Origin: Geodermatophilus tzadiensis
GTDB taxonomy: Bacteria; Actinomycetota; Actinomycetes; Mycobacteriales; Geodermatophilaceae
NCBI RefSeq assembly: GCF_003002915.1
Contig: NZ_PVTG01000004.1
Span: 1-64,000 of the forward strand
Length of the DNA stretch: 64,000 nucleotides
Reading direction: 5' to 3'
The position numbers and the translations under genes were made by a program. Under the pieces are notes generated by a model. That model saw only the letters and a program-made list of their open reading frames with translations. It was not told where the DNA came from and did not search any database. Of this stretch, positions 9,809 to 19,040 are shown in pieces. Each line of letters opens with the position of its first letter. The stretch's first letter is position 1.

Positions 9809-9824
9809 CCCCGGCCGGGGTCAG
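9805..9824. terminator. Perfect 20-bp palindrome, bidirectional terminator
   Basis: CTGACCCCGG is followed immediately by CCGGGGTCAG. The TGA stop of the CheR/PAS gene and the complementary stop of the ANTAR gene form the outer part of the two arms. There is no T-run. Confidence 0.65.
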
Positions 9825-11116
9825 CGCGCGGCGGCGGCGATGACCTCGTCGGCGTGGCCCTCGACGACCAGCCGGGCCAGGTCGCGCACCTTGACGTTGA
9901 GCCGGTTGGACAGGGTCACCAGGCGGGCCCACGCGTCGTCGGCGTCGACCCCGAGCCGGCTCATCAGCACCCCCTTGGCCTGGTCGATGACCGAGCGCGA
10001 GGCGAGCGCCTGCTCGAGGTTGGCGGTCAGCCGGCGCAGCGACTCACGCTCGGCCACCTCCTGCAGCACCGCGGCCGCGGCCAGGGCGACCAGCTCGGCC
10101 ACCCGCCGGTCGGCCGGGCCGAACGCGTCGACCCGCGGTGAGTAGACGTTGAGGACGCCGGTGGGCGCCCCGTCCAGCGCCACCGGGACGGCCAGCACGC
10201 TGCGGACCGGACCGGCCGCGGCCAGCCGGGCCAGCACCGGCCAGCGGGGGTCCGTGCGCAGCTCGCCGGTGACGACGGCCTCGCCGCCGGTGTAGGCGTC
10301 GACGCACGGACCCTCGTCGGCGCGCATCTGGCGGCCGTCGGCCTCCTGGGCCGCGGTGGAGTCGGTGCCGATGTACCGCGGGTCGCGGGGGGAGCCGATG
10401 GTGACGCTGACCCAGCAGGACGACGGCACCGCGCGCTGGGCGAGGGTGGCCATCCGGCCCAGCAGCTGGCGGCGGTCCGCGCCGGCGGAGGCCAGCCGGG
10501 TGAGCTCGGCGAGCGCCTCGGCGATGCCGATGGGAGCCGCGTCGTCGCCGGGGGGCGCCGGCTCCGTGGCCGGGAGCGGCTCGAGGAGGACGGCGTCCTC
10601 CGGGTCGGTGGTGAGCACCCACTGCAGGCGCGCCGGGGCCGGGCCGCCGCCGGAGGTCTCGGCGACCCCGGACAGCAGCGCCTCCGCCCGGACGCCGTTG
10701 CGGCCGTGGAGGGTCACTGCCGCCCGGTGCTCGGCGACCTCCCCGGCGGCCAGCTCCCGCACCGCCGCCCGGAACCCCGGCACGTCGGCCGGTGCGAGGT
10801 AGACCGTGAACGGCTTGCCGAGCAGGCGGGGGAGGGCGACGCCCAGCAGCCCGGCGAGCGCCGGGTTGGCCTCGAGCACCTTGCCCGCGCCGTCGGTGAC
10901 GAACAGCCCGACCGGGAGGACGGCGGTGAGGTGCTCGCGCCACCGGCGCTCGCCGTCGTAGCGCTCGACCAGCCGGGCGATCTCCTCCTGCTGCGCCAGC
11001 AGCTCCTCCTCGGCGACCCGCAGCTCCTCCTGCGCCACCGACAGCTCGGCCAGGGTGCCGACGACCTGCGCCACGGGCAGGTCGGACGCGGGGCCGGTGC
11101 CGCCGCGGTCATCCAC
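9821..11116 (-). CDS. PAS-GAF-ANTAR regulatory protein
   Basis: 431 residues: an N-terminal coiled coil rich in EEL repeats (about 18-60), a PAS domain (about 60-170), a GAF sensor (about 215-360) and a C-terminal ANTAR domain containing SRSVIDQAKGVLMSRLGVDADDA-type sequence (about 375-431). ANTAR domains bind paired hairpins in RNA and antiterminate transcription; the GAF and PAS domains suggest an intracellular ligand or redox input. The GTG at 11116 overlaps the stop of the preceding small gene by 8 nt, giving coupling. The open frame further upstream lies inside that gene and is not conserved-looking. Confidence 0.88.
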   Translation of the reverse strand: MDDRGGTGPASDLPVAQVVGTLAELSVAQEELRVAEEELLAQQEEIARLVERYDGERRWREHLTAVLPVGLFVTDGAGKVLEANPALAGLLGVALPRLLGKPFTVYLAPADVPGFRAAVRELAAGEVAEHRAAVTLHGRNGVRAEALLSGVAETSGGGPAPARLQWVLTTDPEDAVLLEPLPATEPAPPGDDAAPIGIAEALAELTRLASAGADRRQLLGRMATLAQRAVPSSCWVSVTIGSPRDPRYIGTDSTAAQEADGRQMRADEGPCVDAYTGGEAVVTGELRTDPRWPVLARLAAAGPVRSVLAVPVALDGAPTGVLNVYSPRVDAFGPADRRVAELVALAAAAVLQEVAERESLRRLTANLEQALASRSVIDQAKGVLMSRLGVDADDAWARLVTLSNRLNVKVRDLARLVVEGHADEVIAAAAR

Positions 11117-11504
11117 TGAGTGCCCCCCCGGTCGGGTCGTGCCGGTCGGCCTGTGCCTCGCGGCGGTCGGTCTCGGCGTCCCGGCGGTGCTCGACGGCCC
11201 GCCTGCGGTGGTCCACCGGGTCCCCGACCCCCCGGTCGGCGGCCGCATCGTGCACCCGTGCCGCCTCCTCGTGGGCGCGGGCGGCGTTCTCGTGGCCGGT
11301 GGCCGCCCGCTGCCGGGCCTCCTCGGCGAGCTGCGCCGACTCCTCGGCCGCCTCGTGGGCGCGCCGCGCGTCGCGCTCCGTCGACAGCATGCCCGCCGAC
11401 AGCCGGGCCAGGCGCTCGGCGAGCTCGCGGCTGCGCCGGCCGGCCGTCTCGGCCCGCTCCGCGGCCCGCTCCCCGCGGTCCTCAGCGGTCATGGTGCCCA
11501 TCAT
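11109..11504 (-). CDS. Small charged coiled-coil protein, function unknown
   Basis: Up to 131 residues, almost entirely Ala, Arg, Glu, His and Asp, with long helical stretches (AERAETAGRRSRELAERL, then EEARQRAATGHENAARAHEEAA) predicted to form a coiled coil. No domain is recognised. It overlaps the start of the ANTAR protein by 8 nt, so the two are translated together; a scaffold or partner role is only inference. Three ATG codons lie close together (11504, 11501 and 11492) and the start is not certain. It is the first gene of the two-gene unit. Confidence 0.6.
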   Translation of the reverse strand: MMGTMTAEDRGERAAERAETAGRRSRELAERLARLSAGMLSTERDARRAHEAAEESAQLAEEARQRAATGHENAARAHEEAARVHDAAADRGVGDPVDHRRRAVEHRRDAETDRREAQADRHDPTGGALSG

Positions 11505-16116: not shown

Positions 16117-18561
16117 ATGGCGCGCACCGACCGGATCGCGGAGCCGTGGGGCACGCGGACGCCGTACGGGCCGGGGGAGACCTGGCCGACGCGGGTGGAC
16201 TCCCACCTGGCCGACGGGCTGACCGCCGACGACGTCGACCGCTGGGTGCCCTCGGCGACGATCCTGCACAGCAACGGCGACGGCCTGGACATCGCGGTCA
16301 AGGACGGCCGGATCGTCGGCGTCCGCGGCCGTGCCGAGGACCGGGTCAACCACGGCCGGCTCGACCCCAAGGACCTCTACGGCTGGCAGGCGAACCACTC
16401 ACCCGACCGGCTCACGCGGCCGCTCATCCGTCGCGGCGGGGAGCTGGTGGAGACCGACTGGGACACCGCGATGGACGCCGTCGCCGGCCGCTGCCGCGAG
16501 CTCCTCGACGAGCAGGGCCCCAGCGCGATCGGCTTCTACACCTCCGGGCAGCTGTTCCTGGAGGAGTACTACACGCTCGGGCTCATCGCGCACGGCGGCA
16601 TCGGCACCAACCACGTCGACGGCAACACCCGGCTGTGCACCGCCACGGCCGCCGCCGCGCTCAAGGAGACCTTCGCCTCCGACGGCCAGCCCGGCTCCTA
16701 CACCGACGTCGACCACTGCGACGTCATCGCGCTGTTCGGGCACAACGTGGCCGAGACGCAGTCGGTGCTGTGGACGCGCGTGCTCGACCGGCTGGCCGGC
16801 CCCCACCCGCCCCAGGTGGTCTGCGTCGACCCGCGGGAGACGCCGGTGGCCCGCGCCGCGACGGTGCACCTGGCGCCGCGGCCCGGCACGAACGTGGTGC
16901 TCATGAACGCGCTGCTGCACGAGGTGATCGGCAACGGCTGGGTCGACCGGGAGTACGTCGACGCGCACACCGTCGGCTTCGCGGAGCTCGAGGAGCGGGT
17001 GCGCGACTACCCGCCGGAGGTCGCCGAGGAGGTGTGCGACGTCCCGGCCGCGCAGGTCCGCGAGGCCGCCCGCGTGCTGGGCACCGCCGAGCGACTGCTG
17101 TCGACCGTGCTGCAGGGCTTCTACCAGTCCCACCAGGCCACCGCGGCCGCCGTCCAGGTGAACAACCTCAACCTGGTCCGCGGCATGCTCGGGAAGCCCG
17201 GGTGCGGGATCCTGCAGATGAACGGGCAGCCCACCGCGGAGAACACCCGCGAGGCCGGTGCCGACGGCGACCTGGCCGGCTTCCGCAACTGGTCCAACGA
17301 CGCCCAGGTGGCCGACCTGGCGCGGGTGTGGCACCTCGACCCGTTCTCGATCCCGCACCACTCGCCGCCCACCCACGCGATGCAGATGTTCCGGCACGCC
17401 GAGGAGGGGTCGCTGCGCTTCCTGTACGTCACCGCCACCAACCCGGCGGTGTCGCTGCCCGAGCTGGGCCGGATCCGCTCGATCCTGGCCCAGGAGCGGC
17501 TGTTCCTCGTCGTCCAGGACCTCTTCCTCACCGAGACCGCGCAGCTGGCCGACGTCGTCCTGCCCGCCGCCACGTGGGGCGAGAAGACCGGCACCTTCAC
17601 CAACGTCGACCGCACCGTGCACCTGTCGGAGAAGGCGGTCGACCCGCCCGGGGAGGCCCGCGCCGACCTCGACGTCCTCATCGACTTCGCGCGCCGGCTC
17701 GACCTGCGGGACAGGGACGGCGCCCCGCTGGTGACGTGGAGCGACCCCGAGGGCGCCTTCGAGGGCTGGAAGGAGTGCAGCCGCGGCCGGCCGTGCGACT
17801 ACAGCGGGCTGTCCTACGCCAAGCTGCGGGAGCGCAACGGCATCCAGTGGCCGGTCACCGAGGACGCGCCCGAGGGCACCGAGCGGCTCTACGTCGACGG
17901 GCGGTTCTTCGCCGACCCCGACCACTGCGAGAGCTACGGCCGCGACCTGGTCACCGGCGCGCCGCTGGAGGAGACCGAGTACCGGGCGCTCAACCCCCAC
18001 GGCCGGGCGGTCCTCAAGGCCGCCGAGTACGTGCCGCCGCACGAGCTGCCCAGCCAGGAGTTCCCCTTCCAGCTGGTCACCGGCCGGACGATCTACCAGT
18101 TCCACACCCGGACCAAGACCGGCCGGGCGCCGCAGCTGCAGGCCGCCGCCCCGGAGGTGTGGGTGGAGATGTCGGCGTCCGACGCCGCCGACCGCGGCTG
18201 GGGCGAGGGCGACCTGCTCGAGGTCTGCACCCCGCGCGGGCGGGTCGAGGCGCGGCTGCGGGTCAGCGGCATCCGGCCGGGGGTGGTGTTCCTGCCGTTC
18301 CACTACGGCTACTGGGACGCGCCCGACGCGCAGGAGCGGGGGCGGGCCGCCAACGAGCTCACCCCGACCGACTGGGACCCGGTGTCCAAGCAGCCGATCT
18401 TCAAGACGGCGGCGGCGGCGGTGAGCCGGCTGGCGGCCTCCGACGGCACGCCGTCCCCGGCGCCGACGACCACCGCGTCCCGGCCCGTGGCCGCCGACGT
18501 GCCGCCCACCCGGGGTGGCGAGACCGCGCTGGCCGAGGAGACCGTCGGGGGCGCGCGGTGA
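16117..18561 (+). CDS. Molybdopterin oxidoreductase lacking the [4Fe-4S] cysteines
   Basis: 814 residues with the fold of the bis-MGD molybdoenzymes (formate dehydrogenase/nitrate reductase/DMSO reductase superfamily). The motif GNTRLCTAT places a Cys at 174, where assimilatory nitrate reductases and formate dehydrogenases hold a Mo ligand. Later MGD-binding blocks include YVTATNPAVSLPELGR, DVVLPAATWGEKTGTFTN and RTIYQFHTRTKTGRAP. At the N-terminus the C-x2-C-x3-C cluster motif is present in spacing but not in residues: T48, H51, D55, and the usual fourth Cys is D83 in GRLDPKD. The substrate is unknown. The ATG at 16117 is chosen for its GGAGAGGA site. The next gene starts inside its stop. 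Confidence 0.9.
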   Translation: MARTDRIAEPWGTRTPYGPGETWPTRVDSHLADGLTADDVDRWVPSATILHSNGDGLDIAVKDGRIVGVRGRAEDRVNHGRLDPKDLYGWQANHSPDRLTRPLIRRGGELVETDWDTAMDAVAGRCRELLDEQGPSAIGFYTSGQLFLEEYYTLGLIAHGGIGTNHVDGNTRLCTATAAAALKETFASDGQPGSYTDVDHCDVIALFGHNVAETQSVLWTRVLDRLAGPHPPQVVCVDPRETPVARAATVHLAPRPGTNVVLMNALLHEVIGNGWVDREYVDAHTVGFAELEERVRDYPPEVAEEVCDVPAAQVREAARVLGTAERLLSTVLQGFYQSHQATAAAVQVNNLNLVRGMLGKPGCGILQMNGQPTAENTREAGADGDLAGFRNWSNDAQVADLARVWHLDPFSIPHHSPPTHAMQMFRHAEEGSLRFLYVTATNPAVSLPELGRIRSILAQERLFLVVQDLFLTETAQLADVVLPAATWGEKTGTFTNVDRTVHLSEKAVDPPGEARADLDVLIDFARRLDLRDRDGAPLVTWSDPEGAFEGWKECSRGRPCDYSGLSYAKLRERNGIQWPVTEDAPEGTERLYVDGRFFADPDHCESYGRDLVTGAPLEETEYRALNPHGRAVLKAAEYVPPHELPSQEFPFQLVTGRTIYQFHTRTKTGRAPQLQAAAPEVWVEMSASDAADRGWGEGDLLEVCTPRGRVEARLRVSGIRPGVVFLPFHYGYWDAPDAQERGRAANELTPTDWDPVSKQPIFKTAAAAVSRLAASDGTPSPAPTTTASRPVAADVPPTRGGETALAEETVGGAR

Positions 18562-19040
18562 AGCTCGGGCTGGCCATCGAGGAGCTGCACCGGTCGGAGG
18601 ACCACCTCGGGAAGGTGCTGCTCGCGGTGTCCGACCGGCACCAGGCCGACCACGAGGTCTTCCACGTCGCCCGGGACGTCGCCGCCTGGTCGCTGCGGCA
18701 CGTCACCGAGCTGGCCCGGATCGGCCGCGACTTCGGCCTCGACCTCGACCCGGAGCCGGACGGCGAGCCGGGTCTGCTCGAGCGGCTCCAGCAGGCGACG
18801 TCGGACCTGCTCGGCCGCCGCCCGGAGCCCGGCCTGCTGCTGCTCGCCGACCTCCGGCACGTGCACCGCGAGGCCGCCGGCGTCTCGCTGGACTGGGAGC
18901 TGCTCGCCCAGGCCGCGCAGGGCGCGCGCAAGCGCGACCTGTTCGACCTGGCACGGCGCTGCCACCCCGACACGCTGCGCCAGATGCGCTGGGCGAACGC
19001 CAAGCTCAAGGAGTCGGCGACGCAGGCGCTCGTCTCCTAG
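18558..19040 (+). CDS. Partner protein of the molybdoenzyme, function unknown
   Basis: 160 residues, GTG start overlapping the preceding stop as GTGA, so its synthesis is tied to the molybdoenzyme. It is soluble and mostly helical. Visible blocks are LAIEELHRSEDHLGKVLLAVSDRHQADHEVFHVARD and RHVHREAAGVSLDWELLAQ. The many conserved-looking His residues near the N-terminus could suggest a metal- or haem-binding helical bundle, but no family motif is recognised. A role as chaperone or electron-transfer partner of the oxidoreductase is inference from coupling only. A strong terminator follows. Confidence 0.72.
   Translation: MKLGLAIEELHRSEDHLGKVLLAVSDRHQADHEVFHVARDVAAWSLRHVTELARIGRDFGLDLDPEPDGEPGLLERLQQATSDLLGRRPEPGLLLLADLRHVHREAAGVSLDWELLAQAAQGARKRDLFDLARRCHPDTLRQMRWANAKLKESATQALVS

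Follow-up and report, generated by a model that had tools for sequence, protein, structure and literature searches.

How does a molybdenum enzyme handle its electrons when the cysteines that should hold its N-terminal iron–sulfur (Fe–S) cluster are gone? This question is raised by a stretch of 64,000 nucleotides from Geodermatophilus tzadiensis (positions 1 to 64,000 of contig NZ_PVTG01000004.1; the whole stretch is called the window below), which encodes a NapA-like molybdopterin oxidoreductase and, directly behind it, a small partner protein. Electrons enter nitrate reductases and formate dehydrogenases through this N-terminal cluster. A preliminary description of the window had read Thr, His, Asp and Asp at the four cluster positions (T48, H51, D55 and D83), with the exact motif spacing kept and a Cys (C174) at the molybdenum (Mo) ligand position of a long open reading frame (ORF), and these residues and their spacing were confirmed in a protein of 814 residues. 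Comparison with relatives indicates that this is a clade-wide exchange, fixed at three positions of the old cluster site in enzymes whose active site is intact.

16117..18561, forward strand: gene of the NapA-like molybdopterin oxidoreductase, 814 amino acids (ORF, Pfam and predicted fold)
16258..16260, forward strand: codon 48, Thr, a former cluster Cys; Ser, Thr or Ala in replaced-type relatives (ORF, alignment)
16267..16269, forward strand: codon 51, His, a former cluster Cys; His in 150/150 (ORF, alignment)
16279..16281, forward strand: codon 55, Asp, a former cluster Cys; Asp in 150/150 (ORF, alignment)
16363..16365, forward strand: codon 83, Asp, where NapA has its fourth Cys; 18/18 cysteine-bearing sisters have Gly (alignment, phmmer alignment)
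16369..16374, forward strand: codons 85–86, Lys-Asp, the invariant relay lysine followed by a clade-fixed Asp that is Gly in the sisters (alignment)
16636..16638, forward strand: codon 174, the Mo-ligand Cys; neither it nor the next residue, Thr175, varies in either group (alignment)

Four alignment columns separate two types of the enzyme

We compared the enzyme with relatives from the host family (match at E ≤ 1e-100 in 47/112 genomes, 42 of these with at least 77% identity), the host class (62/394 genomes), the host phylum (27/396 genomes) and plasmids (26 records, 20 of them listed), and with the best 80 of 581 relatives from a scan of named genomes. Among the 196 loci with a match, 168, duplicates included, carry H51 together with D55, the two residues by which we define the replaced type; 20 have a three-Cys motif, five have Gly51 and three are unreadable or paralogous. 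For the column counts, rows covering fewer than about 650 residues were dropped and the 191 long rows were reduced to 176 by removing identical duplicates. L043 (40% identical, three-Cys), the paralogue L001, five degenerate sequences and L042, whose frame is broken over the motif while another frame shows the Cys motif, were left out of these counts.

H51, D55 and D86 are invariant, each in 150/150 distinct replaced-type sequences aligned. Positions 48 (Ser 90, Thr 43, Ala 17) and 83 (Gly 97, Asp 52, Glu 1) drift, so that of the Thr/His/Asp set whose conservation had been in question only the His and the Asp are fixed. The 18 aligned cysteine-bearing sisters, which come from several phyla and are 57–64% identical, show Cys-x2-Cys-x3-Cys with Gly at position 83. 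At position 86, which the preliminary description had missed, Asp in 150/150 replaced-type sequences stands against Gly in 18/18 three-Cys sequences; the neighbouring K85 is the same throughout both groups. Of the 765 columns compared, four and no more, namely 48, 51, 55 and 86, share no residue between the 150 replaced-type and the 18 three-Cys sequences. The control consisted of 31 other clade splits, each with 10 or more members on either side; they are nested and hence not independent. They gave no separating column in 30 cases and a single one in the remaining case. The three-Cys sample comprises 18 sequences, and the counts of 18/18 could soften with wider sampling.

The claim that four cysteines had been replaced holds insofar as none of the four positions is Cys. 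However, judged from the alignment, the cysteines swapped in this lineage are three, not four: since the sisters already have Gly at position 83, the fourth Cys was lost earlier than the others. An ancestor with a three-Cys cluster is most likely, because the fourth position is Gly in 18/18 sisters as well as in a Staphylococcus relative of 40% identity. A precedent is arsenite oxidase AioA, in which Cys21-x2-Cys24-x3-Cys28-x70-Ser99 holds a [3Fe-4S] cluster (PMC3758308). AioA serves as a model of the ancestor with three Cys and a non-Cys fourth position, not of the replaced enzyme; according to the same source, it lacks a Mo-ligand side chain and works with a Rieske partner.

In enzymes of this family, the relay lysine beside position 86 sits between the pterin and the cluster, and in formate dehydrogenase H of Escherichia coli only its change to Arg left activity (7.1%; PMC12176258).

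Clade, distribution and phylogeny

The best 80 of 581 relatives in the named-genome scan all carry H51 and D55 and all stand under actinobacterial names, including Blastococcus, Geodermatophilus, Modestobacter, Streptomyces, Nocardioides, Nonomuraea, Mycobacterium, Nocardia, Kribbella and others. The three-Cys relatives include sequences from Actinomycetota as well as plasmid-borne ones from Deinococcus, Hymenobacter, Halomonas and Staphylococcus; a copy from Gloeothece is frame-broken, with the Cys motif readable in another frame. All non-actinobacterial relatives inspected (L037, L040, L041, L042 and L043, from the 20 of 26 plasmid records listed) have the Cys motif.

In a tree of the 176 distinct sequences, the 150 replaced-type sequences and the five with Gly51 form one clade (support 0.981), to which 13 three-Cys actinobacterial sequences are sister (support of the joint node 0.933). 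At least one genome (G012) carries both types. This topology, one clade beside Cys-bearing relatives, fits the neutral suggestion made earlier of a lineage that lost its cluster. A local mutation, a pseudogene or a sequencing error was rejected as the explanation: the motif is present in 168/168 replaced-type loci and in the best 80 of 581 named relatives, and the low ratios of nonsynonymous to synonymous substitutions (dN/dS) given below exclude decay at this locus alone. The replacement is, as far as these sequences tell, clade-wide and widespread in actinobacteria.

What the columns record is a genuine natural exchange of an Fe–S site, unusually clean, within a known enzyme superfamily. One branch exchanged the site in one step and shows hardly any other trace of it in the sequence, with four columns at the cluster and none elsewhere. 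A search of the open-licence literature found no published account of this replacement.

Family placement and active site

Both Pfam domains of the enzyme exceed their cut-offs (Molybdopterin PF00384, 197.3 bits; Molydop_binding PF01568, 101.1 bits) and, together with the fold, place it in the DMSO (dimethyl sulfoxide) reductase, or molybdopterin oxidoreductase, superfamily. The cluster domain Molybdop_Fe4S4 stays below its cut-off (18.2 against 22.7 bits), and inspection of the N-terminus by eye revealed no Tat-like twin-arginine signal. The nearest sequences in the PDB are NapA of Desulfovibrio desulfuricans (2jim and relatives, phmmer E 5e-106), and the AlphaFold2 model (mean predicted local distance difference test, pLDDT, 82.7) has its best fold match in the same protein (2v45, template modelling score 0.80 by query length, 30% identity).

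The enzyme shares with D. desulfuricans NapA (2NAP, 2V45), its best PDB match in sequence and fold, the Cys at the Mo position and the relay lysine. However, four Cys hold a [4Fe-4S] cluster in NapA, and the four-Cys motif of the NapA/NasA type is absent here (T48, H51, D55, D83). In addition, the Mo-ligand Cys is followed by Met in NapA and by Thr in this family. Formate dehydrogenases have His after the Mo-ligand Cys or Sec. The Thr, present after Cys174 in 150/150 replaced-type sequences, therefore sets the family apart from both.

Among the NCBIfam matches listed (25 of 27 families matched), the enzyme reaches no cut-off. It falls short of the nitrate reductase families NasC (390/1100 bits), haloarchaeal NasA (362/1000) and NapA (308/904), of Mo formate dehydrogenase TIGR01591 (453.5 against 666.25), of the cluster-free DMSO/TMAO (trimethylamine N-oxide)/biotin sulfoxide reductases TIGR00509 (bisC; 113 against 1017.55) and of the arsenite oxidase large subunit TIGR02693 (158.2 against 359.05, with none of positions 48, 51 and 55 being Cys). 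The name ‘nitrate reductase’, which is attached to these enzymes and to their cysteine-bearing sisters alike, should be taken as a database label only.

The rest of the protein had been described as intact, and the alignment bears this out: C174, T175, N369, Q371, R378 and E379 are identical in 150/150 replaced-type and 18/18 three-Cys sequences. Simple pairwise counts on these GC-rich genes gave a dN/dS of 0.16–0.34 for the enzyme and 0.14–0.56 for the partner (10 pairs each). The window's own genome has kept an FdhD homologue and encodes further molybdopterin enzymes, among them one whose Cys motif is intact. By these signs the replaced-type enzyme looks functional, and its fixed His and Asp set suggests a working molybdenum enzyme with unusual electron handling.

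Proposed cluster-free catalysis or a possible metal site

The reading we favour, at about even confidence, is that of a working cytosolic and cluster-free oxidoreductase with a Mo-bis-molybdopterin guanine dinucleotide (Mo-bis-MGD) cofactor, which would belong to the NapA/NasA side of the DMSO reductase family and hold a fixed His/Asp/Asp set at the old cluster site. Its ancestor, in which Cys-x2-Cys-x3-Cys was combined with a Gly in fourth place, would most likely have been a [3Fe-4S] enzyme that, as the gene association indicates, already worked with the four-helix partner. On one branch, as the columns show, Ser/Thr/Ala48, H51 and D55 then took the place of the three Cys, and D86 that of the Gly after the relay lysine. 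D55 and D86 would supply, next to K85 and the pterin, the negative charge that the cluster had provided, and H51 might complete a polar, metal-free lock. Electrons would reach or leave the Mo site directly, as in the cluster-free DMSO reductases: a soluble donor would deliver them, or an oxygen atom would pass from one substrate to another. DMSO and TMAO reductases perform redox catalysis at Mo-bis-MGD without an N-terminal cluster. They are, however, distant in sequence, and the Cys motif is wholly gone there, whereas here its spacing is kept with a fixed His and Asp.

Several observations weigh against this reading. A metal site, too, would be expected to keep one His and two Asp invariant. 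In the AlphaFold2 model, residues 48–54 have a pLDDT below 50, which makes the geometry of H51, D55 and D86 unreadable. Genes for HPP-type membrane proteins, which bear on the substrate (see below), are absent at the large majority of replaced-type loci, many of which have flanks of only 1.5 kb. Some enzyme copies are broken: G009 (C1) and the second copy of G085 (C93) are split, G017 (C2) has two in-frame TGA codons and L139 has an in-frame stop, which indicates that the enzyme gene is dispensable in places and that some genomes are losing the pair. Finally, some members of the clade might have gained a functional Cys at position 188 (Cys in 100/150 replaced-type and 1/18 three-Cys sequences). 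This position is, however, only the closest candidate in a column search that found no new Cys common across the replaced clade yet absent from the sisters as a whole. Alternative cysteines were rejected as new cluster ligands for this reason, and the result counts in favour of the cluster-free reading, as do the four separating columns at the cluster site, the single clade, the invariant catalytic residues and the low dN/dS.

The strongest alternative, which we hold to be possible but distinctly less probable, is that the His/Asp/Asp set (with Ser/Thr) coordinates one metal ion (Fe, Zn or Mn) that relays electrons or tunes the pterin. The Fe–S cluster would then perhaps have been exchanged for a non-cysteine mononuclear site (His51, Asp55 and Asp86, mostly with Ser/Thr48) beside the relay lysine, with redox catalysis retained; if true, this would be a new way to wire a molybdenum enzyme. 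The three residues are all of the ligand type and fixed while the non-ligand positions 48 and 83 drift, and a metal site fits this invariance as well as cluster-free catalysis does. Moreover, H51 is gone in five relatives (L088–L092) that have also lost catalytic residues. This coincidence is weak evidence, since the five are one clade in which 45/162 invariant residues are lost altogether. That they keep an acid at positions 55 (Asp/Glu) and 86 (Glu) favours the cluster-free reading, since this would be expected if the acids were structural. The model, uninformative at residues 48–54, cannot decide between a metal site and cluster-free catalysis.

An old partner subunit, predicted to be a four-helix bundle

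18558..19040, forward strand: partner gene, 160 amino acids with nine His, predicted four-helix bundle (ORF, AlphaFold2, tblastn)

The two genes, described earlier as translationally coupled, overlap: the GTG start of the partner at 18558 runs into the enzyme's stop codon (18559–18561). By tblastn, the partner lies downstream of the enzyme at 182 of the 191 loci that extend far enough on that side; a profile search places it at 164/168 replaced-type loci, with three of the four misses at contig ends, and at 18/21 three-Cys loci. On a plasmid of Halomonas KO116 (L041:5983-8811), it forms the C-terminal domain of a 942-residue three-Cys enzyme (i-Evalue 7e-27), which argues for physical contact of the two proteins. 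This fusion gene adjoins HPP, FdhD and formate dehydrogenase genes. It is the only fusion kept in our count: an apparent fusion in a Rhodococcus plasmid (L039) looks like an indel, because another Rhodococcus plasmid carries these two genes unfused, and a further apparent case (L193) was also left out.

AlphaFold2 predicts a four-helix bundle for the partner (pLDDT 90.4). Its fold resembles ferritins and bacterioferritins with VIA-align Z scores of 17–18 over 131–146 residues, with a best Foldseek E of only 0.015. The typical ligand pattern of ferritins consists of pairs of Glu and Glu-x2-His. Such pairs were not seen among the partner's conserved residues; E14, H28, H48 and D98 are conserved in most sequences of both groups and make up no obvious full set of di-iron ligands. 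The best sequence match in the PDB has an E of 0.67, and Pfam gave scattered weak matches for 47 partners, with no family at E ≤ 1 for the window's own.

The preliminary description had named the partner as the obvious candidate for a replacement electron route, and a redox centre in the four-helix protein that takes over the electron input would agree with the overlapping genes, the co-occurrence, the ferritin-like fold and the four mostly conserved residues. We consider this route unlikely. The partner also stands beside three-Cys enzymes and is fused to one, and none of its 140 columns separates the replaced from the three-Cys group. The fold match is weak by Foldseek, and the typical ferritin pairs were not seen among the conserved residues. 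The partner is thus better seen as an old subunit than as a new electron route, and the absence of any remodelling at the loss of the cluster speaks against its taking over the cluster's job, although this would be compatible with a partner that supplied electrons all along.

The three-Cys sisters (Deinococcus, Hymenobacter, Halomonas, Gloeothece and others) have the same partner gene and the same catalytic residues, and differ in Cys-x2-Cys-x3-Cys with Gly86 instead of Ser/Thr/Ala-x2-His-x3-Asp with Asp86. Since such close sisters exist, both the need for the cluster and its stand-in can be tested with natural pairs.

Degenerate copies

The five relatives without H51, which bear a single genus label, combine Gly51 with K85R, T175A and R378L, have lost part of the HTRTKT loop and, in three of the five, the Mo-ligand Cys; all five still have the partner gene. 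By their sequences, they are probably molybdenum-free pseudoenzymes. Together with the broken copies, they could be taken to mean that the enzyme as a whole is drifting towards a non-catalytic or regulatory role, with the exchanged site as structural filler. This is rather improbable, as every checked catalytic residue is kept in the 150 other sequences, dN/dS is low and the window's own genome retains its FdhD homologue. Finally, continued binding of an Fe–S cluster through His, Asp and Ser/Thr only, as the exactly preserved ligand spacing might suggest, is very improbable, since position 48 is Ala in 17/150 sequences and no biological [4Fe-4S] or [3Fe-4S] site that lacks Cys entirely is known to us.

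Gene neighbourhood and possible substrate

There is no fixed operon beyond the enzyme–partner pair. In 38 replaced-type loci compared, the commonest further neighbour, of the copper-binding four-helix type, occurs in five loci only. A Cys-rich protein with the annotation ‘four-helix bundle copper-binding’ (PF03860) is encoded in the fetched flanks of 25 replaced-type loci (for example, L036:3913-4311).

Genes for HPP-type membrane proteins (PF04982) lie downstream of 8/21 three-Cys versus 6/168 replaced-type loci, the latter six all with one family label (f58), and formate/nitrite transporter (FNT) genes were found near one three-Cys and four replaced-type loci. Nitrite transport has been described for one plant and one cyanobacterial HPP protein (Maeda et al. 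2014, as cited in PMC4137279). Homology and these HPP and FNT neighbours hint weakly at nitrate/nitrite chemistry, with nitrate or a related oxyanion as the likeliest substrate.

Two genes on the reverse strand of the window are divergent from the enzyme gene, a bacteriorhodopsin-like gene (PF01036, 14984–15943) and a beta-carotene dioxygenase gene (PF15461, 13977–14984). A rhodopsin homologue is also found near the enzyme in four other loci (L007, L008, L009 and L142). Further upstream on the reverse strand, the window encodes a PAS-GAF-ANTAR regulator (9821–11248), likely an RNA-binding antiterminator, which is too distant to be tied to the enzyme–partner pair.

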